From Bacteroidales bacterium (GTDB taxonomy: Bacteria; Bacteroidota; Bacteroidia; Bacteroidales; Muribaculaceae): DNA of 37,399 bases. The DNA lies in assembly GCA_030536615.1 (NCBI GenBank), contig JAUNPQ010000017.1, positions 1 to 37,399 on the forward strand. The letters are read 5' to 3'. Shown piece after piece: positions 1,205-22,380 of the stretch. The translations under genes and the position numbers were made by a program. The notes under the pieces are model-generated. The model was not told the origin of the DNA. It did no database searches and was given only the letters and a program-made list of their open reading frames with translations. Each line of letters starts with the position of its first letter. Position 1 is the first letter of the stretch.

Positions 1205-2227
1205 ATGAACATCACGATACGGCATATGGAATGGCTGCTCACCACACACAACTGTGTGGTCGTGCCGCGTCTTGGTGCCGTGTTGGCCCGGCACCGTTCC
1301 GCCGGCATCGACAGCGAAAAAGGGCTTATCTCCTCGCCTGGCCGAACTTACGCGTTCAATTCCGAGCTGACTGTTTCTGACGGTCTTCTGGAGCATTCTG
1401 TGGCACGGGCCGAGGCCATCAGCCATGAAAATGCCTCGCGGTTGATTGCCCGCGATGTTGATGCGATGAAAGCTCAGCTGCACACACAGGGCATCCTGTC
1501 GTTGGGACGTGCCGGCACATTAAAATATGACAGTACATCAGACGCCACTACATTCCTTCCTTTTGACACTGATACACTCACACCATTGTCATCGTGGATA
1601 GCCGCCGTACCGGTTTCGGAGACAGCCTGTGTCAATGAAGAACCGGCCCGGGCAGAAAACAAGGCAATCCCGGTTCCTGCCGTACGTCTCTGGAAACGTA
1701 TTGCACGCACAGCGGCAGCTGTTGCAGCAGTTATCGCCGTAGCACTCGTCTCATCAACACCCATAAGCGTGGAGCACGCCAACTACGCCTCTCTGGCGCT
1801 CCCGACGGTCTCTGCCCCAAAGGCGGCATATGTTCCCTCTGCCGGCATGCCGGTCCTGAACCTTGCAATTGACGGCGCGCACATGCCGGTGATGGTTGAT
1901 ACGGCTTCCCGATACGAATGGCAACGCGCCCATACCACCGGCACGCCGGAAATGCATGAAACTACCGGGAACGCATCTGAAAGCGGCAGCAACCTCTCAG
2001 CCCCTGACCTTTACTATGTGGTTGTAGCCTCATTGGCCAACGAGGCAGATGCCGCCGAATTCATCCGTTACACCGTAAAACAGTATGACGGCAAGCTCTC
2101 AATGCTTCGCAAAGGTAAACACGTTCACGTATATGCGGCTGCAGCGCCCACCGAGCAGAAGGCACGCGCCATTCTCAACTCAGGGATCGCCTCGACATTC
2201 ACCGGAGCATGGATTTGCCGCCGCTAA
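1205..2227 (+). CDS. HU-CCDC81 / SPOR domain inner-membrane protein
   Basis: The N-terminal ~115 residues (EWLLTTHNCVVVPRLGAVLA, then LLEHSVARAEAISHENA) match the bacterial HU-CCDC81 domain architecture common in Bacteroidota. A single membrane segment follows at about residues 167-185 (ARTAAAVAAVIAVALVSS), then a low-complexity periplasmic linker. The last ~70 residues form a SPOR domain (LYYVVVASLANEADAAEFI), a fold that binds glycan strands denuded of stem peptides at the division site. The protein is thus expected to link a cytoplasmic HU-like domain to septal peptidoglycan. The ATG at 1205 is kept because the HU domain homology begins right after it. An internal ATG at 1226 would cut into the domain, though a conventional leader would favour it. 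Confidence 0.85.
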   Translation: MNITIRHMEWLLTTHNCVVVPRLGAVLARHRSAGIDSEKGLISSPGRTYAFNSELTVSDGLLEHSVARAEAISHENASRLIARDVDAMKAQLHTQGILSLGRAGTLKYDSTSDATTFLPFDTDTLTPLSSWIAAVPVSETACVNEEPARAENKAIPVPAVRLWKRIARTAAAVAAVIAVALVSSTPISVEHANYASLALPTVSAPKAAYVPSAGMPVLNLAIDGAHMPVMVDTASRYEWQRAHTTGTPEMHETTGNASESGSNLSAPDLYYVVVASLANEADAAEFIRYTVKQYDGKLSMLRKGKHVHVYAAAAPTEQKARAILNSGIASTFTGAWICRR

Positions 2228-2267
2228 GAGAACAAAGCCCCCTGAGGCAACGTTTCTAACATAGACA

Positions 2268-2311
2268 TCTCTTCCTGAAAGCCGACGGAAACACCGGCTT
2301 GGTAAAAGAGA
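2268..2311 (+). other. Two-helix hairpin upstream of nitroreductase
   Basis: TCTCTT (2268-2273) pairs with AAGAGA (2306-2311), and inside it AAGCCG (2279-2284) pairs with CGGCTT (2295-2300). No U-run follows, so it is not a standard terminator. It could be a structured leader for the gene at 2353 or chance pairing. Confidence 0.25.
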
Positions 2312-2352
2312 CGGACCCTATTCTTTCATAAACGCATATTGTCAACAACATC

Positions 2353-2916
2353 ATGGGACAACAGAACATCTCACCGCAGGAATTCACAGAATTGCTTCTT
2401 ACGCGCCACAGCATAAGACGCTATACCGATGAAAAAATTGACCCTGACAAGGTCAAGGATATACTTCAGGCCGCATTACTCGCGCCCACAAGCAAAAGTG
2501 CACGTCCATGGCAGTTTGTGGTTGTGGAAGATCCGGAAACTCTTCAGGCTCTTGCCGGATGCAAACCACTTGGCGCGCACTCTCTGAAAACCTGCGTATT
2601 GGCTGTGGTTGTCTGTGCAGATCCGGCTGTCTCGCCAATGATTCTGGAAGACTGTGCCATTGCCGCTGAATTCATGCAGCTGCAGGCTGCTGTACTTGGC
2701 ATAGGCTCATGTTGGGTACAAGTACGGGGACGCGACAATGCCGAGGGCATTCCGTCTGATGACGTTGTAAGGCAACTCCTCGACATTCCGGCTGATATAA
2801 CAGTGGAGTGCATCATGACATTCGGATATTCCGCAGAGACACGTCGCCCCGTTGATCCCTCAAAGTTGAAATGGGAAAAAGTGCACATCGGTAAATGGAC
2901 AGACAGCGCGGAATAA
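2353..2916 (+). CDS. Nitroreductase family protein
   Basis: A 187-residue FMN-dependent oxidoreductase of the nitroreductase superfamily, expected in the cytoplasm as a homodimer using NAD(P)H; the natural substrate cannot be predicted. The N-terminus has the FMN-phosphate binding signature RHSIRRYTDEKI (residues about 19-30), followed by LLAPTSKSARPWQFVVVED. The middle carries the helix EDCAIAAEFMQLQAAVLGIGSCW, typical of the subfamily. Length is normal for the short branch. It is the first gene of a tight forward cluster; the next gene overlaps its 3' end by 22 bases, implying co-translation. Confidence 0.9.
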   Translation: MGQQNISPQEFTELLLTRHSIRRYTDEKIDPDKVKDILQAALLAPTSKSARPWQFVVVEDPETLQALAGCKPLGAHSLKTCVLAVVVCADPAVSPMILEDCAIAAEFMQLQAAVLGIGSCWVQVRGRDNAEGIPSDDVVRQLLDIPADITVECIMTFGYSAETRRPVDPSKLKWEKVHIGKWTDSAE

Positions 2917-3704
2917 ATTCCCCGAACCCACTGAAAGTAATCATAATCGGTGCCGGCAATGTGGCATGGCATCTGGCCGGAGCAATCAAAGAGCCATATG
3001 GCCGGGTTGAGGCCGTGTTTTCACGCAACCGTACACATGCCTCACAGGTAGCCTTGCGGAGCGCTACCGGTGTTCCGGTAACAGACATAGCCTCGCTGCC
3101 CCGTGACGGCCATGTTTACCTCATTGCCGTTCCGGATGACGCTATCGCCTCAGTAGCCGCAAGAATGCCCCAGGTCAGAGGTGTGGTAGCCCATACATCA
3201 GGCACACTGCCGATAGACGCGCTCAAGAACGTTGTCTGCGGTGGCTACGGCAGCTTCTATCCGCTCCAGACATTCACAGCCGGCAAAGAAACTGACATGC
3301 GGGCCGTGCCGTTTTTTATAGAAAGCAGCAACAGTCTTGCTTCTGAAACACTTGATACTCTGGCCCGGACCATAAGTGACCACGTATATCCGGCAGACAG
3401 CCGGATACGCGCGCAGATACATCTTGCTGCTGTCTTTGCTTCCAATTTCTCAAACGGACTGTGGGGTGTGGCATCAGATATCCTCAGCCAGTCAGGACTC
3501 TCTCTGAATGTCCTGGCTCCATTGCTGCACGAGACACTTGACAAAGCCATCGCAATCGGGCCTGATGCGGCACAGACAGGACCGGCAAAGCGAGGCGACA
3601 CGCAGACAATACAAAAACACCTTGACCGGCTGGAGACGCCGGAGCTAAAAGAACTATACTCCAACCTTACTAACCTGATAATAAAAAGACAATGTCAAAA
3701 ATAG
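2895..3704 (+). CDS. Rossmann-like / DUF2520 protein
   Basis: A 269-residue protein with an N-terminal NAD(P)-binding Rossmann motif (VIIIGAGNVAWHLAGAI, residues about 15-31) and a C-terminal helical domain of the DUF2520 type (AAVFASNFSNGL, then a conserved stretch through GPAKRGD). The architecture resembles F420/NADP-dependent and 6-phosphogluconate-like dehydrogenases; the substrate is unknown. The start overlaps the nitroreductase by 22 bases and no other ATG precedes the GAGNVA motif, which fixes the start. The 3' end overlaps the KdsC-like gene by 13 bases. The order nitroreductase, DUF2520, KdsC, Maf is familiar from other Bacteroidales, from memory. Confidence 0.85.
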   Translation: MDRQRGINSPNPLKVIIIGAGNVAWHLAGAIKEPYGRVEAVFSRNRTHASQVALRSATGVPVTDIASLPRDGHVYLIAVPDDAIASVAARMPQVRGVVAHTSGTLPIDALKNVVCGGYGSFYPLQTFTAGKETDMRAVPFFIESSNSLASETLDTLARTISDHVYPADSRIRAQIHLAAVFASNFSNGLWGVASDILSQSGLSLNVLAPLLHETLDKAIAIGPDAAQTGPAKRGDTQTIQKHLDRLETPELKELYSNLTNLIIKRQCQK

Positions 3705-4885: not shown

Positions 4886-6490
4886 TCACGAGCTTCTGAT
4901 ATTCATCACATCAGCCTCAAAAGTATCTTTATCCAGAGCACGTTGCCGCAAACGTGTGCGGTAGGCATATATGGTGTTGACAGAATAGTTGAGCATCTGG
5001 GCTATGCGTGAAGTGTCATCAATACCAAGACGCATGAACGCCAATATGCGCAGATCCGTGTTCATATGCTCTCCCTCCTTGAGTTCTATAGCACCCTCAG
5101 GCTGTAGCAACTCATTGACCCGCTCCAGAAAATCAGGATATAGATTGAGGAAAGCGGCATCAAAAACGGCGAAAAAGTCCCCGCTCTGCTCATTGCCGAA
5201 TTTTCCGCTTTTAATCATACGTGACACCTCGTCAGCCTTTCCACTGCTGATCTTGCGGTCAACATACATGGCAAAACGCGACAACCGCTCCACATAGACT
5301 GCGCACAGTTCCATGAATCGGTTGAGATACACCTCGCGCATCTGATTTATCCGTGACAATGATTCATTTGATTTCTGCCCACCCTTTACAGCATGCCGCC
5401 AACGCCACGCAATGGCAATCACAGCCAAAGACAACATGATGATCACTGCAGCCATAATCCACCATCCGCCACGACTGTCAGCTGTTTTTTCATGATAAGA
5501 GTCAATGACCGCAGGCATATATGCAGCCGCCTCAAGTATATTTACAACATTGCCTGATTTCAATGCGCCGTCAAGAGCCATTTCATAATACCTGGCCGCT
5601 TCATGCCCCGAGCCGTTCTCGGCCATCAGCGCACCCACACGACACAGACCGCCAGAACCGCTATCGCCCGCTATAAGATCATTGTTGACAGCCTTAAGCA
5701 GATAATAGGCGGACGCATCGCGGTCAGACATCTTGCCCATCAGCTCTGACAAAAGATACGCCGCCCGTGAACGCAACGCAGAACCCTGCGACTCTGATTC
5801 AAACACATCAATGAGCAAAGCTCCCGCTTTCTGATAGTCTCCACGTGCCATATACTCCTCGCCAAGAGCCAGACGGTACAACGGATTATCACGCCCGTCA
5901 TCGTCAACCGCCTCCAACAATGCCCTCCGACAGCGGTCTGCCTCCTGACGATAACGTGACGCCTTTTCCGGAACATTACTGAAAAAACGCCCCATTATCC
6001 TGTACATCCTTCCTCCGGCATCATAATAGGCCATTGCCTCTTCTGCCGTCTGCTCATGCATGCCGCCCTTAAAAAACATTTCCTCAGCATCCGCGTAACG
6101 ACCGCTTTTGGAGAACAGCACAGCAAGCTCAGCCATAATAGCCGCGCTCTTACCTTCAGGAAAATCATGGACGGCCCGTTCATAATATCTTATGGCAGAA
6201 TCTACATTAACACCATCATAAGCCGCCCCTACAGCACGCATGGATTCCGCCGAGGGATTTGCATGAGCATAACGTTTCAGCGACACAACTTTCTCATCAC
6301 GGTTTTCCAAAAGTCTCTCTCTTTGCAAAAGCAACCCCTGCATCCGGGCAAAGACAGAATCAGCATCAGCTCGTGAAATCTTGATATCAATGGCAAAAGC
6401 CCGCACAGTGCCCACCGTGCCAACAATACATGCTCCTAAAATCAGGCAACAGACACAATACAGACACCTTTGCACACACCGATGCTTCAT
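4886..6490 (-). CDS. DUF6377-type TPR membrane regulator with C-terminal HTH
   Basis: A large regulator-like protein: N-terminal signal or anchor (CLYCVCCLILGACIVGTVGT), a periplasmic region of TPR-like repeats (for example AIRYYERAVHDFPEGKSAAI), a transmembrane helix (WWIMAAVIIMLSLAVIAIAW), a cytoplasmic helical segment, and a C-terminal LuxR-like helix-turn-helix (DDTSRIAQMLNYSVNTIYAYRTRLRQRA). This matches the DUF6377 family of Bacteroidota, presumed membrane-spanning transcription factors; target genes are unknown. The open frame extends to an ATG at 6550, but a perfect -7 box at 6548-6555 puts the transcript start near 6541. The start must therefore be 6508 or 6490; 6490 gives the better signal sequence. 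Confidence 0.82.
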   Translation of the reverse strand: MKHRCVQRCLYCVCCLILGACIVGTVGTVRAFAIDIKISRADADSVFARMQGLLLQRERLLENRDEKVVSLKRYAHANPSAESMRAVGAAYDGVNVDSAIRYYERAVHDFPEGKSAAIMAELAVLFSKSGRYADAEEMFFKGGMHEQTAEEAMAYYDAGGRMYRIMGRFFSNVPEKASRYRQEADRCRRALLEAVDDDGRDNPLYRLALGEEYMARGDYQKAGALLIDVFESESQGSALRSRAAYLLSELMGKMSDRDASAYYLLKAVNNDLIAGDSGSGGLCRVGALMAENGSGHEAARYYEMALDGALKSGNVVNILEAAAYMPAVIDSYHEKTADSRGGWWIMAAVIIMLSLAVIAIAWRWRHAVKGGQKSNESLSRINQMREVYLNRFMELCAVYVERLSRFAMYVDRKISSGKADEVSRMIKSGKFGNEQSGDFFAVFDAAFLNLYPDFLERVNELLQPEGAIELKEGEHMNTDLRILAFMRLGIDDTSRIAQMLNYSVNTIYAYRTRLRQRALDKDTFEADVMNIRSS

Positions 6491-6547
6491 CACAAAAACA
6501 TATGACATACCATCACCATTATTCGGGCTACAAACCCAATCAACGCA

Positions 6548-6555
6548 CAAAAGTA
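6548..6555 (-). promoter_or_regulatory. -7 element for the DUF6377 gene
   Basis: The minus strand reads TACTTTTG, a perfect TAnnTTTG box. Transcription near 6541 excludes the most upstream ATG (6550) as start codon. No TTG is present at the usual -33 spacing. Confidence 0.5.
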
Positions 6556-6702: not shown

Positions 6703-6773
6703 TGTCTTGTGGTGTAATGGTAGCACGTCGGATTCTGGTTCCGCCTGTGAGGGTTCGAATCCTTCCAAGACAA
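6703..6773 (+). tRNA. tRNA-Gln (anticodon CUG)
   Basis: A 71-base cloverleaf: acceptor TGTCTTG (6703-6709) pairs with CAAGACA (6766-6772), the D-loop contains TAATGG, and the anticodon loop TTCTGGT places CTG at 6735-6737. The T-stem GAGGG/CCTTC encloses TTCGAAT, and the discriminator is A6773. CCA is not encoded. The outermost anticodon-stem pair is a T-C mismatch (6728/6744). It has its own promoter and a strong terminator. Confidence 0.93.
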
Positions 6774-6780
6774 CATCATA

Positions 6781-7087: not shown

Positions 7088-7142
7088 ATTAACAATTTTT
7101 AACTGGGGGGGGGTGGATATATGATTATTTGTGCTACTTTTG
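7088..7142 (+). promoter_or_regulatory. G9-tract promoter module, copy 1
   Basis: Three parts: the box ATTAACAATTTTTAACT (7088-7104), a run of nine Gs (7105-7113), and after 21 bases the -7 element TACTTTTG (7135-7142). The G-run sits where the -33 TTG is normally found. An almost identical module of the same total length (55 bases) lies at 20146-20200 on the other strand. Start site about 7148, leader about 90 bases. A second TAGTTTTG box at 7054-7061 could be an alternative promoter. The rest of 6958-7087 shows nothing recognisable. Confidence 0.6.
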
Positions 7143-7238: not shown

Positions 7239-9539
7239 ATGGTACGTTTCTTTGCATTCCTGATTGCTGTGTCCATAAGCGCCGGGGCATACCTCTCGGC
7301 GCGGACCATACACGGCAATGTCCTTTCCGAAGCAGACTCAACAGCGGTCACCGCGGCATCATGCCGTCTGATCAAAGACAGCGCGGACTTAGCGACCTCG
7401 ACAGTTGATTCCACCGGACATTTTTCCCTTTCCACAGATGCATCCGGACCCATAACCCTCGAAATCAGCATGCAGGGATATATTACCACTGAAATAATCA
7501 TAGAACAGAACACCAAAGATCTACAACTTGGCTCCATTTTCCTTTCGGAGGAAGTCAGCACACTCAATGAACTGACCGTCACGACGCAAGGCACAACCGA
7601 ACGCCGCGGACGCACCATTGTCTATCCGTCGGCAGCCGATGTCAAGGCTTCGGCTACCTCACTGGGACTCTTCCGCAAACTCCCATTCGGCGGTCTGGAA
7701 GCCAATCCCATCACACGCACACTCAAGGTTGACGGGGGGACACCGATGATTCTAATAAACGGCATCCCATCATCTATTGACGATGTGAACGCCCTGTTGC
7801 CAAAGGACATTGAGAAAATTGAATTCTCCCGCATCACTCCCGCCCGCTACATGGACAAAGGCGTCAGCGGTCTTATTGAGATAACCCTGAAGAAACGTAA
7901 TGACGGCGGACAGGTGTATCTCTGGGGCCGGAGCGCGGTGAACACAGCTTTTGTCGACGGCAACATGCGTGCCAGCTACCACCAGGGACCCTCACAGTTC
8001 ACCGTTATGTACAACACCTCCTGGCGCAACTATCAACGAGTCTATGACAATTCAGTGGAATCATACATCGCCCCCGATTTCCGCGCTGACATCACCGGCC
8101 ATGACCGCAACCCTTTCAACTACTTCTTCAATCAGGGACAGATACGATATGACTACAGTCCATCAACAAACACCCTTTTCTCCGCAACATTCAAGACATT
8201 CTCAAACACCACCGGCAACCGTAAGATAGGAGACCTCACAGACAATCAATATGAAAGCTATGAACTGCGGGGAAAAACAAGTTCAAAAGATCTGTCACCT
8301 TCACTTGACCTCTTTCTGCGTCAGGATTTCAACGAGAACAACTCAATGGAGGTCCAGATCGTAGGCACACTCAGCAGCAACGACTACCGGCGCACAAACA
8401 CCTATGATTTTGCCGACGGCAACCAAAACATCTACGACGTGGATGTGGACAGCCGGCGCCGGTCACTGATTTCCGAGATAAACTACATCCACGACTTCAG
8501 CGAACGCACAACGCTCTCCGGCGGTTTCCAGAACACCATGTCACACAGCACCAACAAATATCTTACAAGTGACTATAAACCGGTGCTTACAGAAAACAAC
8601 AACTACATATTTGCGCGTCTGGGACAACAAATCGGTCCGATATATCTCTCGCTGGCCACCGGTGTAAAACTTTTCTGGGTGAAGAATGACATCAACAAAC
8701 GGCATTTTGTACGCAACCTCACCAACGTAAGAGCGTCCTGGACCATCAACAGCAAATGGAGTCTGAACGCCGGCTTCCGCTATACACCTTCAATACCGTC
8801 AATATCATCACTCACTGACTACCCGCAACAAAGCACCCCTTATCTCATTTCAAACGGCAATCCGGACCTCAAAGTTGCCGAAAGATTTCAGTACACCATC
8901 AGCGGAAGTTTCCGCCATAAAAAGTTTTCAGTCTCGGCATTCGTCGGCTATGTTGACATCAAGGACATGGTTACTGATGACGTCAGATATCTTGGCGACG
9001 GCATGTTTCTGAATCAGTCCGTGAACATCAGCAAACAGCGTATGCTTCAGAATGAACTACAGTTTCGCATCAGTGACCTGGCCGGCTTCGGGGCAGCGCT
9101 GCAAATGGACTTGAATCACTACAACAGCGCCGGTGACGGTTGGAAGCACAACCTGACAAGTTTCAACGGATCGATCAGCCTCTGGTGGAATCATGGCCCG
9201 ATAACCATTGAATACTGGCGTAAACTTCCGGGCAAATACCTCACGGCCCACTATGTCGGCAAAGACGAGAACGGCGACGCCCTGTCATTCAACTATCAGC
9301 CGGACAAACACTGGATGATCGGAGTCAGCTGGATGTATATGTTCGATGTCAAAGGCACACGGTATCCGTCATGGAATCTCTCAGACATAAACCCGTCAAC
9401 AAACCAACGCTACATAAAAGACAACGGCAACATGGTGACCCTCAGCGTTCGCTATTCAGCTGACTTCGGAAGCCTGTTCCGCACTGCCCGGCGCAACCTC
9501 AACAACAGCGACAACGGATCCTCGCTGCTTAAGATGTAA
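7239..9539 (+). CDS. Outer-membrane beta-barrel receptor (TonB-receptor type)
   Basis: A 766-residue outer-membrane protein. It has a signal peptide (residues 1-20, VRFFAFLIAVSISAGAYLSA), then a carboxypeptidase-regulatory-like beta-sandwich (about 22-105, ending in the typical GSIFLSEEVSTLNELTVT), a plug-like domain (about 110-225, with LKVDGGTPMILINGIP and IEKIEFSRITPARYMDKGV), and a long beta-barrel. This is the outer-membrane beta-barrel family related to SusC/TonB-dependent receptors, but there is no adjacent SusD and no obvious TonB box. The cargo is unknown. The C-terminus ends in LLKM, not the usual aromatic residue, after a short polar tail. Expression is presumably from the G9-tract promoter at 7088-7142, and a bidirectional terminator follows. 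Confidence 0.85.
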   Translation: MVRFFAFLIAVSISAGAYLSARTIHGNVLSEADSTAVTAASCRLIKDSADLATSTVDSTGHFSLSTDASGPITLEISMQGYITTEIIIEQNTKDLQLGSIFLSEEVSTLNELTVTTQGTTERRGRTIVYPSAADVKASATSLGLFRKLPFGGLEANPITRTLKVDGGTPMILINGIPSSIDDVNALLPKDIEKIEFSRITPARYMDKGVSGLIEITLKKRNDGGQVYLWGRSAVNTAFVDGNMRASYHQGPSQFTVMYNTSWRNYQRVYDNSVESYIAPDFRADITGHDRNPFNYFFNQGQIRYDYSPSTNTLFSATFKTFSNTTGNRKIGDLTDNQYESYELRGKTSSKDLSPSLDLFLRQDFNENNSMEVQIVGTLSSNDYRRTNTYDFADGNQNIYDVDVDSRRRSLISEINYIHDFSERTTLSGGFQNTMSHSTNKYLTSDYKPVLTENNNYIFARLGQQIGPIYLSLATGVKLFWVKNDINKRHFVRNLTNVRASWTINSKWSLNAGFRYTPSIPSISSLTDYPQQSTPYLISNGNPDLKVAERFQYTISGSFRHKKFSVSAFVGYVDIKDMVTDDVRYLGDGMFLNQSVNISKQRMLQNELQFRISDLAGFGAALQMDLNHYNSAGDGWKHNLTSFNGSISLWWNHGPITIEYWRKLPGKYLTAHYVGKDENGDALSFNYQPDKHWMIGVSWMYMFDVKGTRYPSWNLSDINPSTNQRYIKDNGNMVTLSVRYSADFGSLFRTARRNLNNSDNGSSLLKM

Positions 9540-18037: not shown

Positions 18038-20074
18038 TCAGAAATATAGTTCAAAGCCCGCACCTATCCTGAAACCGGTTCCGAACTTCTTGACATCACT
18101 GAACTCATCCGCCGCCTTCTCAAAGAGTTTGCCTTTTGTCAGCGCGAAATAATACTCCGGAGACAACACAAAAGCAAAATGCGAACTTGTCCGGATCTGC
18201 ATGCGCAGCGATCCCAGACCACTGCCCACCCAGGTATCCTTACAGTCAAGATGACGGTAGCCCACTTGCGGATTGAACATTACACGTCCGGCACAGAAAG
18301 CCAGACCTATGCGTCCTCCATAGTAGACGCCGGGCTTTATAGCGGACATCGTTACGTATTTATTCTCTACATACTGATAGACATCAATGCCGCTGTTGAA
18401 ACACATGCCGCCCTCAAACTGCATGTTGAACCGGTGAGTCACAAATCCCATTGTGCCTCCCACCCCGTTCAGATTGCCGAATGCACCGTCAGCCGTGATG
18501 TAGAAATATCTGTACGGATGCCAGGAATATCCCTCCTCGCGGCCCCAGTCGGAATAGTCATGATAGACTATCTTTTTCATAGTGTAATACTCACTCTGAC
18601 TTTTGTTTACAGTGACAGTCTTTGAAAAATTTTTGTATCCGTCGTGCGCCAGTGAGATTGTATGTGTTGTGCGCGGAAGACATACAAACGTATATGGTGA
18701 CGCCACCGCACGCGCCTGCCCGTCTATCTTCAGCGTGGCATCACTCGGAGTCCACGTCAGACGCAGTTCAACAGTGTTGGTGAGTTTCGCATCAATCTTG
18801 CCCACTTCAAGCTCTCGTATTTCAACAGATTTTGTATAAACCTGATAGTCCTGCTTCTTAAGTTCTATCTTATGTGTGCCTATGAGCAGTTTCGGGATAA
18901 CATAAGGGGTTGTCTTGCCTATATCCTTACCATCAACCCATATCGCAGCCCCTTTCGGATCGCTTATTATGTCAAGAGAACCATATATCGGTTCCGGAGC
19001 TGACAGATTGATGGTATATTCATGATTTTTGTCAGCCACCTCAAATTGACGCCTGAAAGGATTATGCCCGGCTTTACGAGCCTCAAGATTATACGTGCCC
19101 GGCTCAAGCGGCCCTATCCACGTCTTGATGCCTTTAAGCTCTCCGTTGATGAATATCGAACATTCATCAGGCGCATTGACCGTCACTGTTGAATAGTTGG
19201 CGTCAAGCTGAGGACTGAGCCGTGCCTCCTGATTGTCGGCAACATCGAATGTCTGTGTGAACGGGCTGTAATTCTTGCGCACAATCTTCAGCGTATGCCT
19301 CCCGCTCTTCATTTTCATGCGGTTGATGTTCACATAAGGATACTTCACCATGTCAATGAATATGTCGGCATCACGCAGATCCTCGCCTATCAGTGTCACC
19401 CATCCATAGTCCTGCCGCATCCGCACATTCACCTTATGTGAGTTGTTGGGATCCATGAGCACAAACTCACCGGCCTCGGTATGATAATCCGGAGCAGTCA
19501 GCGTATACTGATAAGTGCCGAAAGGCAGCGCTTTGGCCGCATAGCCTTTCGCATCAAGAGCCCACGGCTCACCGTTCACTTCAAGATAGGCATTCGCCGG
19601 AGTGACATTGAATTCCACGAATTGCCGGTCTGTGGGGTTAGGCAGCGCCACATAACCAAGCTCCATGTTGTATACCGTGGCTTCCTTCAGTCCTCCACGG
19701 GGCATATCGATGCGTACGGGTTTGATAGCATCACTTTCATGGCTGATTGTCATACTTTTGACATTAGGACTCACCCAGAGATAGACAATATGACGGCCGC
19801 GGTCATCCTCCCTCTCATCCACATGTGAATAGTTGGATCCCACATTGAACCGGAATCCGGTCAGATTGTTGAGGTTTGTCACTTTTATCAATGCACACGG
19901 TTTGTTGGTGGCACGGTCCGTACGCTTCTCTATCGTTGCAGCGGCATCATTGTCATCTGCAACAAACTTGCGCACCGTAATGCTGTTGTCAGGAGAGGCG
20001 CCCCATGCACCCATCCATGTGCACAGCAGCATCATCCCGGCTACAACAAAAAGTTTTCGTAGAATAGATTTCAT
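18038..20074 (-). CDS. PEGA-repeat protein with C-terminal outer-membrane barrel
   Basis: A 678-residue exported protein, first gene of the envelope operon. Signal peptide residues 1-25 (LFVVAGMMLLCTWMGAWGA). After a beta-rich N-domain come about five PEGA-type repeats (roughly residues 150-490); the clearest is GSLDIISDPKGAAIWVDGKD followed by IGKTTPYVIPKLLIGTHKIE. The last ~180 residues (from about 495, RYFYITADGAFGNLNG) alternate as a beta-barrel and end GAGFELYF, with a terminal aromatic as expected for BAM-dependent outer-membrane proteins. The PEGA string could face the periplasm or surface as a spacer tied to the barrel. Its promoter is the G9-tract module at 20146-20200. Confidence 0.85.
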   Translation of the reverse strand: MKSILRKLFVVAGMMLLCTWMGAWGASPDNSITVRKFVADDNDAAATIEKRTDRATNKPCALIKVTNLNNLTGFRFNVGSNYSHVDEREDDRGRHIVYLWVSPNVKSMTISHESDAIKPVRIDMPRGGLKEATVYNMELGYVALPNPTDRQFVEFNVTPANAYLEVNGEPWALDAKGYAAKALPFGTYQYTLTAPDYHTEAGEFVLMDPNNSHKVNVRMRQDYGWVTLIGEDLRDADIFIDMVKYPYVNINRMKMKSGRHTLKIVRKNYSPFTQTFDVADNQEARLSPQLDANYSTVTVNAPDECSIFINGELKGIKTWIGPLEPGTYNLEARKAGHNPFRRQFEVADKNHEYTINLSAPEPIYGSLDIISDPKGAAIWVDGKDIGKTTPYVIPKLLIGTHKIELKKQDYQVYTKSVEIRELEVGKIDAKLTNTVELRLTWTPSDATLKIDGQARAVASPYTFVCLPRTTHTISLAHDGYKNFSKTVTVNKSQSEYYTMKKIVYHDYSDWGREEGYSWHPYRYFYITADGAFGNLNGVGGTMGFVTHRFNMQFEGGMCFNSGIDVYQYVENKYVTMSAIKPGVYYGGRIGLAFCAGRVMFNPQVGYRHLDCKDTWVGSGLGSLRMQIRTSSHFAFVLSPEYYFALTKGKLFEKAADEFSDVKKFGTGFRIGAGFELYF

Positions 20075-20145: not shown

Positions 20146-20200
20146 CAAAATTAACTACAATAACCTTAAAAATTACCCCCCCCCGGTAATAATTGTTAAT
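20146..20200 (-). promoter_or_regulatory. G9-tract promoter module, copy 2
   Basis: On the minus strand: box ATTAACAATTATTACC (20185-20200), nine Gs (forward C-run 20176-20184), 22 bases, then TAATTTTG (20146-20153). Total length is 55 bases, as in the copy at 7088-7142. Start site near 20140, leader about 65 bases to the PEGA gene ATG. The remaining intergenic sequence (20201-20409) holds only the divergent promoter for the PorE-like gene and its leader. Confidence 0.6.
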
Positions 20201-20274: not shown

Positions 20275-20409
20275 CACATTGCATTGAAAACTGCGTCGGG
20301 CCGGGGAAACTCCATCCGGCCCCGGGATATCCGGTGTGACCACCACCCCTGCAGACAATGTGATCGCTAACCCGATGCAATAATGTCCCCGGCAATGCGT
20401 TTTACAGAT

Positions 20410-22380
20410 ATGAGACACATCTTTTATAATATAGTGGCATTGATTGCCTGCATGGCCGTTCTCACCGGTTGCGGCGGGGCGAAACTGTCTGTTGCTGATG
20501 AACAGATGGCGCGCGGGGAATATTTTGATGCCTCAAAGACATACCGCAAAATATACAACAAACTCACAAAGCGCGAGGAACGCCGACAGCGCGGCGAAGT
20601 GGCTTTCAAGATGGCTGAGTGCCACCGCAAACTGCGCCAGACGGCACGTGCCGCCGGAGCCTATCAGAACGCCATAAACTTTGGTTGCACTGACTCAATG
20701 GCCTACCTCTACATGGGCCAGTGCCTGCAGGCTGAGGGCAAATACGCACAGGCAATAAAGGCCTATGAGGATTTTCTGGAGAAAGTTCCCGGCGATGCCA
20801 AAGCCCTCACCGGCATTGACGGATGCCGCAGCGCAATGGACAAGACCGCGCGCACACGCTATGTTGTCAGCAACGCCAAACTCTTCAACAGCAGCCGTGC
20901 CGACTTTGCTCCCATGTACCTTGACAAGTCATATGACCGCCTCTACTTTACATCCACCAACGAGAAAGTGACCGGCAGCCGCCGCAGCGAAATCACAGGC
21001 ATGAAGAAAGGCGACATATACGTGTCGGCGAAAAACGAGAAAGGCCAGTGGGGCAAGCCCGAGCCTGTCGAGGGCGAACTTAACAGCGAACTTGACGAGG
21101 GAATAGTGTCTTTCACCCCCGACGGCCAGACAATGTACCTGACCAAGGCACGCCGCGAGCTGAACGCCAACACCGGCGTGGAGATCTACACCTCCACCCG
21201 CAGCGACGCCAAGTGGAGCGCACCTGTGAAATACGAGATTACCGCCGACACACTCTCAAGCTACGGACATCCGGCAGTATCTCCTGACGGCACATGGCTA
21301 TACTTCACCTCCGACATGCCCGGCGGCTACGGCGGAAAGGACATATGGCGTGTCAACCTCAAGGAACGCGCAGGCTCACTTGAAAACCTCGGGGAATGGA
21401 TAAACACACCCGGTGACGACGAGTTTCCCTACATGCGCACAGACTCCGTGCTCTACTTTGCCAGCGACGGCCACCCCGGCTTCGGAGGCCTTGACATTTT
21501 CCGCGCCCAGATGATGCCCTCTGGCGGATGGACTGTTGTCAACATGGGCAAGCCCATAAACTCATCGGCCGATGACTTTGGCATAACCTTCGGCCCGGGC
21601 GAGACCGGCTACTTCAGCACCAACCGCGGTGACGCACGTGGCTATGACCACATATATTCCTTCCAACTCCCGGAACTGAAAATAACAATCTCCGGCTGGG
21701 TGCTTGACAAAGACGAGGAACCGGTGCCCAATGCCGTTATACGCATCGTGGGCAACGATGGCAGCAATCAGAAACAGGTGGCCCGTGATGACGGCACATT
21801 CTCATTTCCTCTTGACCGTGGTGTCAGCTACGTGATGATGGCCGGAGCAAAAGGCTATCTGAATGCCAAACAGGAATTCACAAGCGACATTGCCGAGGAG
21901 GACGCCGAGTACAACGTTGATTTCTCCCTGGCATCAATAAACAAGCCCGTGGTTGTGGAAAACATATTCTATGATTTTGACCGCGCCACACTTCGTCCCG
22001 AGTCAAAGAAAGCCCTTGACGAACTGGCCCAGGTGCTCCGCGACAACCCCAATGTCACCATCGAGATGGCATCGCACACAGACCGTCACGGATCCGATGC
22101 CTACAACATAGACCTTTCCGGACGCCGCGCACGCTCCGTCATTGACTACCTCATAAGCGTGGGCATAGCCCCTGACCGCCTCCAGAGTCAGGGTTACGGT
22201 GAATCGAGGCCAAAGACAATCACCAAAAAGCTGGCGCGTGAATATCCTCAGTTCAAAGAAGGAGACATACTCACCGAAGAATTCATCCTTGCCCTGCCCG
22301 AGGAAGACCAGGAAGCGGCTGACCAGATAAACCGCCGCACCGAATTCCAGGTTCTGAGCATTGACTACCGGATGTATTGA
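20410..22380 (+). CDS. PorE-like lipoprotein: TPR, beta-propeller, regulatory-like and OmpA domains
   Basis: A 656-residue lipoprotein. The ATG at 20410 is chosen over 20383 because it puts the signal (MRHIFYNIVALIACMAVLTGC, lipobox Cys21) at the N-terminus. Domains in order: TPR repeats (about 25-145), a PD40/WD40-like beta-propeller (about 160-425; YLDKSYDRLYFTSTNE, SPDGTWLYFTSDMPGGYGGK), a carboxypeptidase-regulatory-like fold (about 430-515; ISGWVLDKDEEPVPNAVIRI), and an OmpA peptidoglycan-binding domain (about 525-650; FYDFDRATLRPESKKALDEL). This order matches PorE of the type IX secretion system in Porphyromonas, but similar proteins occur in species without T9SS, and no other por gene is in the window. 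Its role is anchoring an outer-membrane lipoprotein to the cell wall. Confidence 0.85.
   Translation: MRHIFYNIVALIACMAVLTGCGGAKLSVADEQMARGEYFDASKTYRKIYNKLTKREERRQRGEVAFKMAECHRKLRQTARAAGAYQNAINFGCTDSMAYLYMGQCLQAEGKYAQAIKAYEDFLEKVPGDAKALTGIDGCRSAMDKTARTRYVVSNAKLFNSSRADFAPMYLDKSYDRLYFTSTNEKVTGSRRSEITGMKKGDIYVSAKNEKGQWGKPEPVEGELNSELDEGIVSFTPDGQTMYLTKARRELNANTGVEIYTSTRSDAKWSAPVKYEITADTLSSYGHPAVSPDGTWLYFTSDMPGGYGGKDIWRVNLKERAGSLENLGEWINTPGDDEFPYMRTDSVLYFASDGHPGFGGLDIFRAQMMPSGGWTVVNMGKPINSSADDFGITFGPGETGYFSTNRGDARGYDHIYSFQLPELKITISGWVLDKDEEPVPNAVIRIVGNDGSNQKQVARDDGTFSFPLDRGVSYVMMAGAKGYLNAKQEFTSDIAEEDAEYNVDFSLASINKPVVVENIFYDFDRATLRPESKKALDELAQVLRDNPNVTIEMASHTDRHGSDAYNIDLSGRRARSVIDYLISVGIAPDRLQSQGYGESRPKTITKKLAREYPQFKEGDILTEEFILALPEEDQEAADQINRRTEFQVLSIDYRMY

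Follow-up and report, generated by a model that had tools for sequence, protein, structure and literature searches.

The window, i.e., the whole stretch of 37,399 nucleotides that was analysed, belongs to a Bacteroidales bacterium of the family Muribaculaceae and carries two intergenic sites, A and B, on opposite strands (Table 1). Site A lies before a gene for an outer-membrane beta-barrel protein, in which CarboxypepD_reg matches were also found below cut-off, and site B before a gene for a PEGA/CarboxypepD_reg protein. The earlier note had placed outer-membrane genes after both sites; this stands for gene A, where OMP_b-brl_3 is over its cut-off, while gene B offers only PEGA/CarboxypepD_reg and a hydrophobic N-terminus. 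The neighbour divergent from gene B (20383-22380) encodes a PorE-family T9SS protein, over the curated cut-off. A tRNA-Gln gene (6703-6774) is located between site A and a gene at 4886-6550, the DUF6377/TPR product of which resembles SusR regulators, below the curated cut-off.

The same module is present at both sites, namely the direct repeat TTAAC-N5-TTAMC, a G9 run and the -7 box TAnnTTTG, and the half-sites start at identical distances (-46 and -36) from the -7 box. The two-site module of 55 bases described earlier is real, and each site spans exactly this length. Its opposite one-base differences were found in the linker (1 vs 0 bases) and in the spacer (21 vs 22 bases) and not in the G run, which is nine long at both sites. 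Within the window, ATTAACAATT occurs at sites A and B only. The full module, present twice in the window, did not appear in any of 300 first-order Markov simulations of the window, and a bare G6-9 run placed 17-23 bases from a -7 box appeared in 7 of the 300. The two sites are no two-copy coincidence.

Table 1. Features of sites A and B and the genes that follow them (window coordinates; distances are counted from the first T of the -7 box)
Feature	Position	Strand	Remark
Site A, whole module	7088-7142	+	ATTAACAATTTTTAACT-G9-N21-TACTTTTG
Site A, upstream half-site TTAAC	7089..7093	+	starts at -46
Site A, downstream half-site TTAAC	7099..7103	+	starts at -36
Site A, G9 tract	7105..7113	+	about the place of the -33 box
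Site A, -7 box TACTTTTG	7135..7142	+	
Gene after site A, outer-membrane beta-barrel protein	7239..9539	+	766 aa; OMP_b-brl_3 over Pfam cut-off
Site B, whole module	20200-20146	-	ATTAACAATTATTACC-G9-N22-TAATTTTG
Site B, upstream half-site TTAAC	20195..20199	-	starts at -46
Site B, downstream half-site TTACC	20185..20189	-	starts at -36; 4/5 match to TTAAC
Site B, G9 tract	20176..20184	-	about the place of the -33 box
Site B, -7 box TAATTTTG	20146..20153	-	
Gene after site B, PEGA-domain protein	18038..20074	-	678 aa; hydrophobic N-terminus

Copies of the module have also been found well outside the window. In the own genome (2.33 Mb, 114 contigs), the pattern G6-N16-28-TAnnTTTG gave 17 raw matches at 11 distinct places against 2 for the reversed control, and the genes behind the 11 places mostly have hydrophobic, signal-peptide-like starts when judged by eye. 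A stricter form of the module was detected in 139 of 397 same-family genomes, representing 20 of 30 genera, and its reversed control gave 0 in every row among the matches listed. The earlier note had looked to further copies above chance, and these numbers, set against the low reversed controls, provide them. Named records account for at least 118 stretches with the module; Prevotella denticola, Xylanibacter caecicola, Hoylesella buccalis, Phocaeicola oris, Heminiphilus faecis and Paramuribaculum intestinale are among the matches listed, as are some metagenome bins under names such as Clostridium and Staphylococcus, which seem to be mis-titled. Across the order, a two-repeat pattern that includes a G run was found in 15 of 392 genomes and its control in 2. 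One genome (G185) has four module matches by the stricter pattern, yet no strict TTAAC-N5-TTAAC repeat. A mobile or duplicated repeat was rejected as the source of the copies since the sites are alike in the module and not in their flanks, a few paralogous pairs excepted (by eye). G runs of coding regions were rejected as well, because the -7 box stands upstream of genes, at a median of 79.5 bp (n = 106; 95 within 250 bp).

The geometry was derived from 117 collected sites. A second TTAAC, matching in at least four of five bases, is located exactly 10 bp upstream of the first in 108 of the 117 sites and at 11 bp in 1; this upstream TTAAC was absent from the search query, while the G, TAAT and -7 box were partly required by it. 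A direct repeat with the 10-11 bp period of OmpR/PhoB-type operators is therefore present. The column profile of 116 sites reads TTAAC-N5-TTAAC-N3-5-G7-9-TAATTT-N-TAnnTTTG-C, in which TAnnTTTG was demanded by nearly all search patterns behind the further sites. From the end of the second TTAAC to the -7 box there are 30, 31, 32 or 33 bp in 21, 72, 22 and 2 sites, respectively. In 102 of the 117 sites, the last G of the run falls at -20 or -19, counted from the -7 box, which agrees with the earlier placement of the run near the -33 position; in 89 of them, its first G falls at -27 or -26, where a third half-site of the 10-bp series would begin. The family-wide copies, the second TTAAC, the fixed geometry and the helical phasing described below support the earlier proposal of a separate class of promoters bound by a regulator, and give it a firmer footing than the window by itself could.

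The same repeat is also found without a G tract, and its spacing is phased there too. TTAAC-N5-TTAAC followed by a -7 box at 20-44 bp, with no G required, was searched in 14 module-rich genomes and gave 94 rows, 91 after removal of duplicates. For G-bearing promoters, the gap is 30-33 bp in 45 of 51. For G-free promoters, it is 31-34 bp in 26 of 40, 22-23 bp in 5, 43-44 bp in 7 (a cluster touching the upper end, 44, of the searched range) and elsewhere in 2, so that 38 of 40 occupy one of three positions in helical phase with the core promoter. The 51:40 share of G-bearing promoters is biased because the 14 genomes were picked for having modules; the phasing of the 40 G-free promoters is much less so. 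As the gaps are clustered by helical turns, the regulator would sit on one face of the DNA, and phasing is its mark. Where the phased repeat takes the 31-bp position, the G run comes as an additional element. A TTG stands at the -33 place in 6 of 25 G-free repeat promoters with gaps of 31-34 bp (one near-duplicate of the 26 left out), compared with a shuffle mean of 3.0 (P 0.06).

A gene of at least 100 codons could be called for 106 of the 117 sites. Signal-peptide-like starts, called by a crude hydrophobicity rule from the best of up to eight starts, were assigned to 94 of the 106 targets vs 205 of 386 further ORFs from these loci, the latter complete and of at least 150 aa (Fisher p 1.6e-12). 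A family search with 105 of the 106 genes (L128, a poor ORF, left out; long proteins cut to their last 850 residues) revealed BspA-type LRR proteins (9 of 105), DUF3575 (8) and SusC/RagA (5), as well as barrels and domains that bind carbohydrates; the exceptions include two ABC-transporter ATPases. A T9SS cargo regulon as the whole explanation was rejected, since C-terminal tails of that kind are confined to a minority of targets: 14 of 85 complete targets vs 9 of 314 control ORFs by a looser pattern, which was written after seeing the tails and is biased, and 5 of 85 by the first, stricter pattern, applied to the targets only. Of 60 relatives, only 2 (L252 and L253) have a gene related to that after site B (36% identity, E 1e-60 or better), and neither of these fetched loci contains a run of six G or a TTAAC-type repeat. 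Regulon membership therefore seems to turn over.

The regulator genes next to the repeat point to the RprXY two-component system. Of 129 genomes across the order, 94 contained the G-free repeat pattern (304 matches); the reversed control had 56 matches in 38 genomes, i.e., a sizeable chance level. The RprY of the own genome (an OmpR-type response regulator, contig C8) was searched in 65 genomes. All 30 repeat-rich genomes have it, but so do 29 of the 35 genomes that lack a repeat match, so that its presence alone explains little; among module-bearing genomes it was found in 73 of 80, including 50 of 50 of good quality. In 16 genomes, those of the repeat-rich set that have sites among the matches listed (82 sites after merging of overlapping rows), a site lies within 3 kb of 14 of 30 RprY-family genes, with 0.27 expected. 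All 14 linked loci share one arrangement: regulator and kinase on the same strand, then 2-4 half-sites at the 5' end of the kinase gene, firing away from it. A site stands at the same place in 4 of 7 additional RprY loci, the contigs of which have none among the matches listed. Moreover, the recognition helix is conserved. The alignment comprised 17 of 18 site-linked proteins (L240 left out; own regulator C68 excluded), and 16 of the 17 have 15-21 of 22 residues in common with the own-genome RprY; a paralogue at L233 shares 11 of 22.

In the own family, this linkage is weak. Among the matches listed, 1 of 73 same-family RprY genes has a divergent G module when judged by eye. At this locus (L071, = G363:C147), RprY (1104-1802) and the kinase (1889-3535) are encoded by the minus strand; a G7 module at 3529-3582 has the opposite orientation and fires into a DUF3575-type gene. 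Among the RprXY loci fetched from closer relatives, 1 of 20 has a site (L212, a G9 module, not in the divergent place), and none was found at the RprXY locus of the own genome (L211). The 14 linked loci counted above lie in other families.

Short stretches of about 100-150 nt, apparently non-coding (by eye) and ending in a hairpin and a T-run, follow TTAAC arrays in those other families. They were seen at L231 (from 3819), L232 (from 4179), L193, L195, L196, L197, L198 and L200, and further at L237, L238, L241, L242, L244, L246, L249 and L250, mostly beside RprXY-type genes. Five G452 copies share TTTAGGTTTGATTGGTTAG, TTTCATAGTGTTTTGGTTA is common to L232 and L200, and L198 has a tandem pair. 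By their sequence features, the stretches look like small RNAs under an OmpR-type regulator; Rfam at gathering thresholds gave no match in L191-L210.

Taken together, these results suggest the following mechanism. Sites A and B would be promoters of the primary sigma factor, with TAnnTTTG as the -7 box and a tract of ~6-10 G instead of a -33 box. A two-half-site operator, TTAAC-N5-TTAAC, just upstream of the G tract would be bound as a direct repeat by an OmpR-type response regulator, most likely RprY, and the distance of ~31 bp from operator to -7 box would position the G tract. The bound regulator is predicted to activate the genes behind, mostly for surface, outer-membrane and secreted proteins. 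The promoter class is probably read by RprXY, and to the account as a whole, i.e., G tract for -33 box, primary sigma and upstream operator bound by an RprY-type activator, we assign a probability of roughly 0.65. Activation rather than repression is proposed with reserve because, in the available parts of the respective papers, RprY of P. gingivalis is described as a likely repressor (PMC3646045) and overexpressed RprXY reduces the expression of a B. fragilis gene (PMC12197655). Sigma factor, RNA polymerase or another protein might contact the G tract. More tentatively, and with the odds somewhat against it, the tract could be a promoter element of its own: a non-canonical -33 box that the primary sigma factor would recognise only next to an RprY dimer bound immediately upstream, the site of a G-tract-binding protein or a degenerate third half-site.

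The direct repeat might instead be the operator of another OmpR/PhoB-type regulator (PhoB with its Pho box, or the regulator at the C111 site) or be shared by several. We consider this unlikely. RprXY rarely adjoins the module in the own family, and RprY-type genes would then be tied to the operator only in other families. Direct repeats of TTAACA resemble the PhoP box of Bacillus. At one locus of the own genome (C111; L189), genes for a kinase and a PF00486 response regulator immediately precede a G7 module, which is followed by a gene of outer-membrane type with a start resembling that of gene A. Against this reading, a control regulator family has 0 of 19 genes with a site within 3 kb, although just 0.19 were expected by chance and three rows that are also RprY-family were left out, one of them (G692:C189) beside a site. 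The recognition helices of four other regulators of the own genome share only 8-9 of 22 residues with RprY. Regulator genes adjoining G modules showed no general linkage in 118 loci (L067-L184) searched by phmmer with three own regulators, and the single match was RprY itself (L071). For PhoB in particular, no pst or phosphatase gene was recognised, from translations and by eye, as first gene at 20 fetched G-free regions. The accessible part of a paper on B. fragilis PhoB contains neither TTAAC nor a consensus (PMC3547664), and that of a B. thetaiotaomicron network paper neither RprY nor TTAAC (PMC12596196).

The earlier note had also suggested phase variation, in which slippage of the G run would toggle the expression of surface proteins. 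Tract lengths of 6-10, a position between operator and core promoter, and mostly surface or secreted targets would suit such a switch. Two near-identical paralogous promoters of the own genome (G000:C74:4622 and G000:C109:7541; L009 and L019) differ in the tract, GGGAGGGGGG vs CCGGGGGGGGG, and G length is partly carried over into the total spacing (r = 0.35). Nevertheless, linker and spacer offset much of the tract length. G length is correlated with linker length at r = -0.50 (117 sites), linker plus G with the spacer at r = -0.68, and the variance of the total distance is 0.43 vs 1.95 for the summed variances of the parts, so that total spacing is nearly constant. Since the TTAAC-to-(-7 box) distance is held at ~31 bp, the G tract is better described as a positioned element than as a free-running slippage switch. 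The base preceding the run (T 62, C 45, A 10 in 117 sites) is as compatible with base changes at the edge of the run as with slippage. Slippage is left unsupported by these values and appears improbable as the explanation. An alternative sigma factor, also suggested earlier and here taken as an ECF factor reading the G tract, would find the tract about where a sigma factor reads its upstream box and is still hardly credible: TAnnTTTG is the usual -7 box of primary-sigma promoters, and what is specific to the module resembles an OmpR-type operator, the repeat of which holds the same phase without a G tract.

If the G tract is a promoter element of its own, the conserved RprXY system, which is essential in B. 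fragilis, would shape through this design which surface proteins are made by Muribaculaceae and Prevotella-type bacteria. With a candidate operator of exact geometry, the genes under RprXY control could be predicted for many species of gut and mouth, and host-visible molecules are among the putative targets (LRR surface proteins, DUF3575 and barrel proteins, lipoproteins). In the available portions of the open-licence PMC literature on promoters of Prevotella, Muribaculaceae and Bacteroidetes, as in that on RprY, nothing was recognised as this promoter class, and two papers on RprY contain no wording such as consensus, motif, direct repeat or binding site in those portions; the coverage being open-licence PMC, an earlier publication elsewhere is possible. 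Replacement of the -33 box by a G tract would be an unusual promoter design, which is not known from other bacteria.

Among the closest counterparts of the module are operators of the OmpR/PhoB family such as the CpxR boxes, GTAAA-N5-GTAAA. Like these, it has two direct half-sites of 5 bp with a 10-bp period, phased to the core promoter; unlike these, its half-site is TTAAC and a G tract separates operator and core promoter. RprY of P. gingivalis and RprXY of B. fragilis belong to the same regulator family as the own-genome RprY. According to the available excerpts, a transposon screen of B. fragilis identified rprX/rprY as its only essential two-component regulator and RprXY alters OmpF/OmpC levels in E. 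coli (PMC4072883), while P. gingivalis RprY binds its own promoter and those of nqrA, ahpC and chaperone genes (PMC5706477, PMC3646045). Its targets reported there are stress, chaperone and nqr genes, unlike the module targets. In ordinary Bacteroidota promoters, the sigma-ABfr consensus has TTTG at -33, as stated in the accessible part of the source (PMC7366714). The -7 box TAnnTTTG of sigma-ABfr promoters is likewise present at both window sites, and the module differs in lacking the -33 TTTG, with the G tract about there and the operator just upstream. Finally, the phase-variable porA promoter of Neisseria also has a G tract. The module is like it in placing poly-G in the promoter of a surface-protein gene, and unlike it in its near-fixed overall spacing, in serving many genes and in holding the tract upstream of, not inside, the core spacer.
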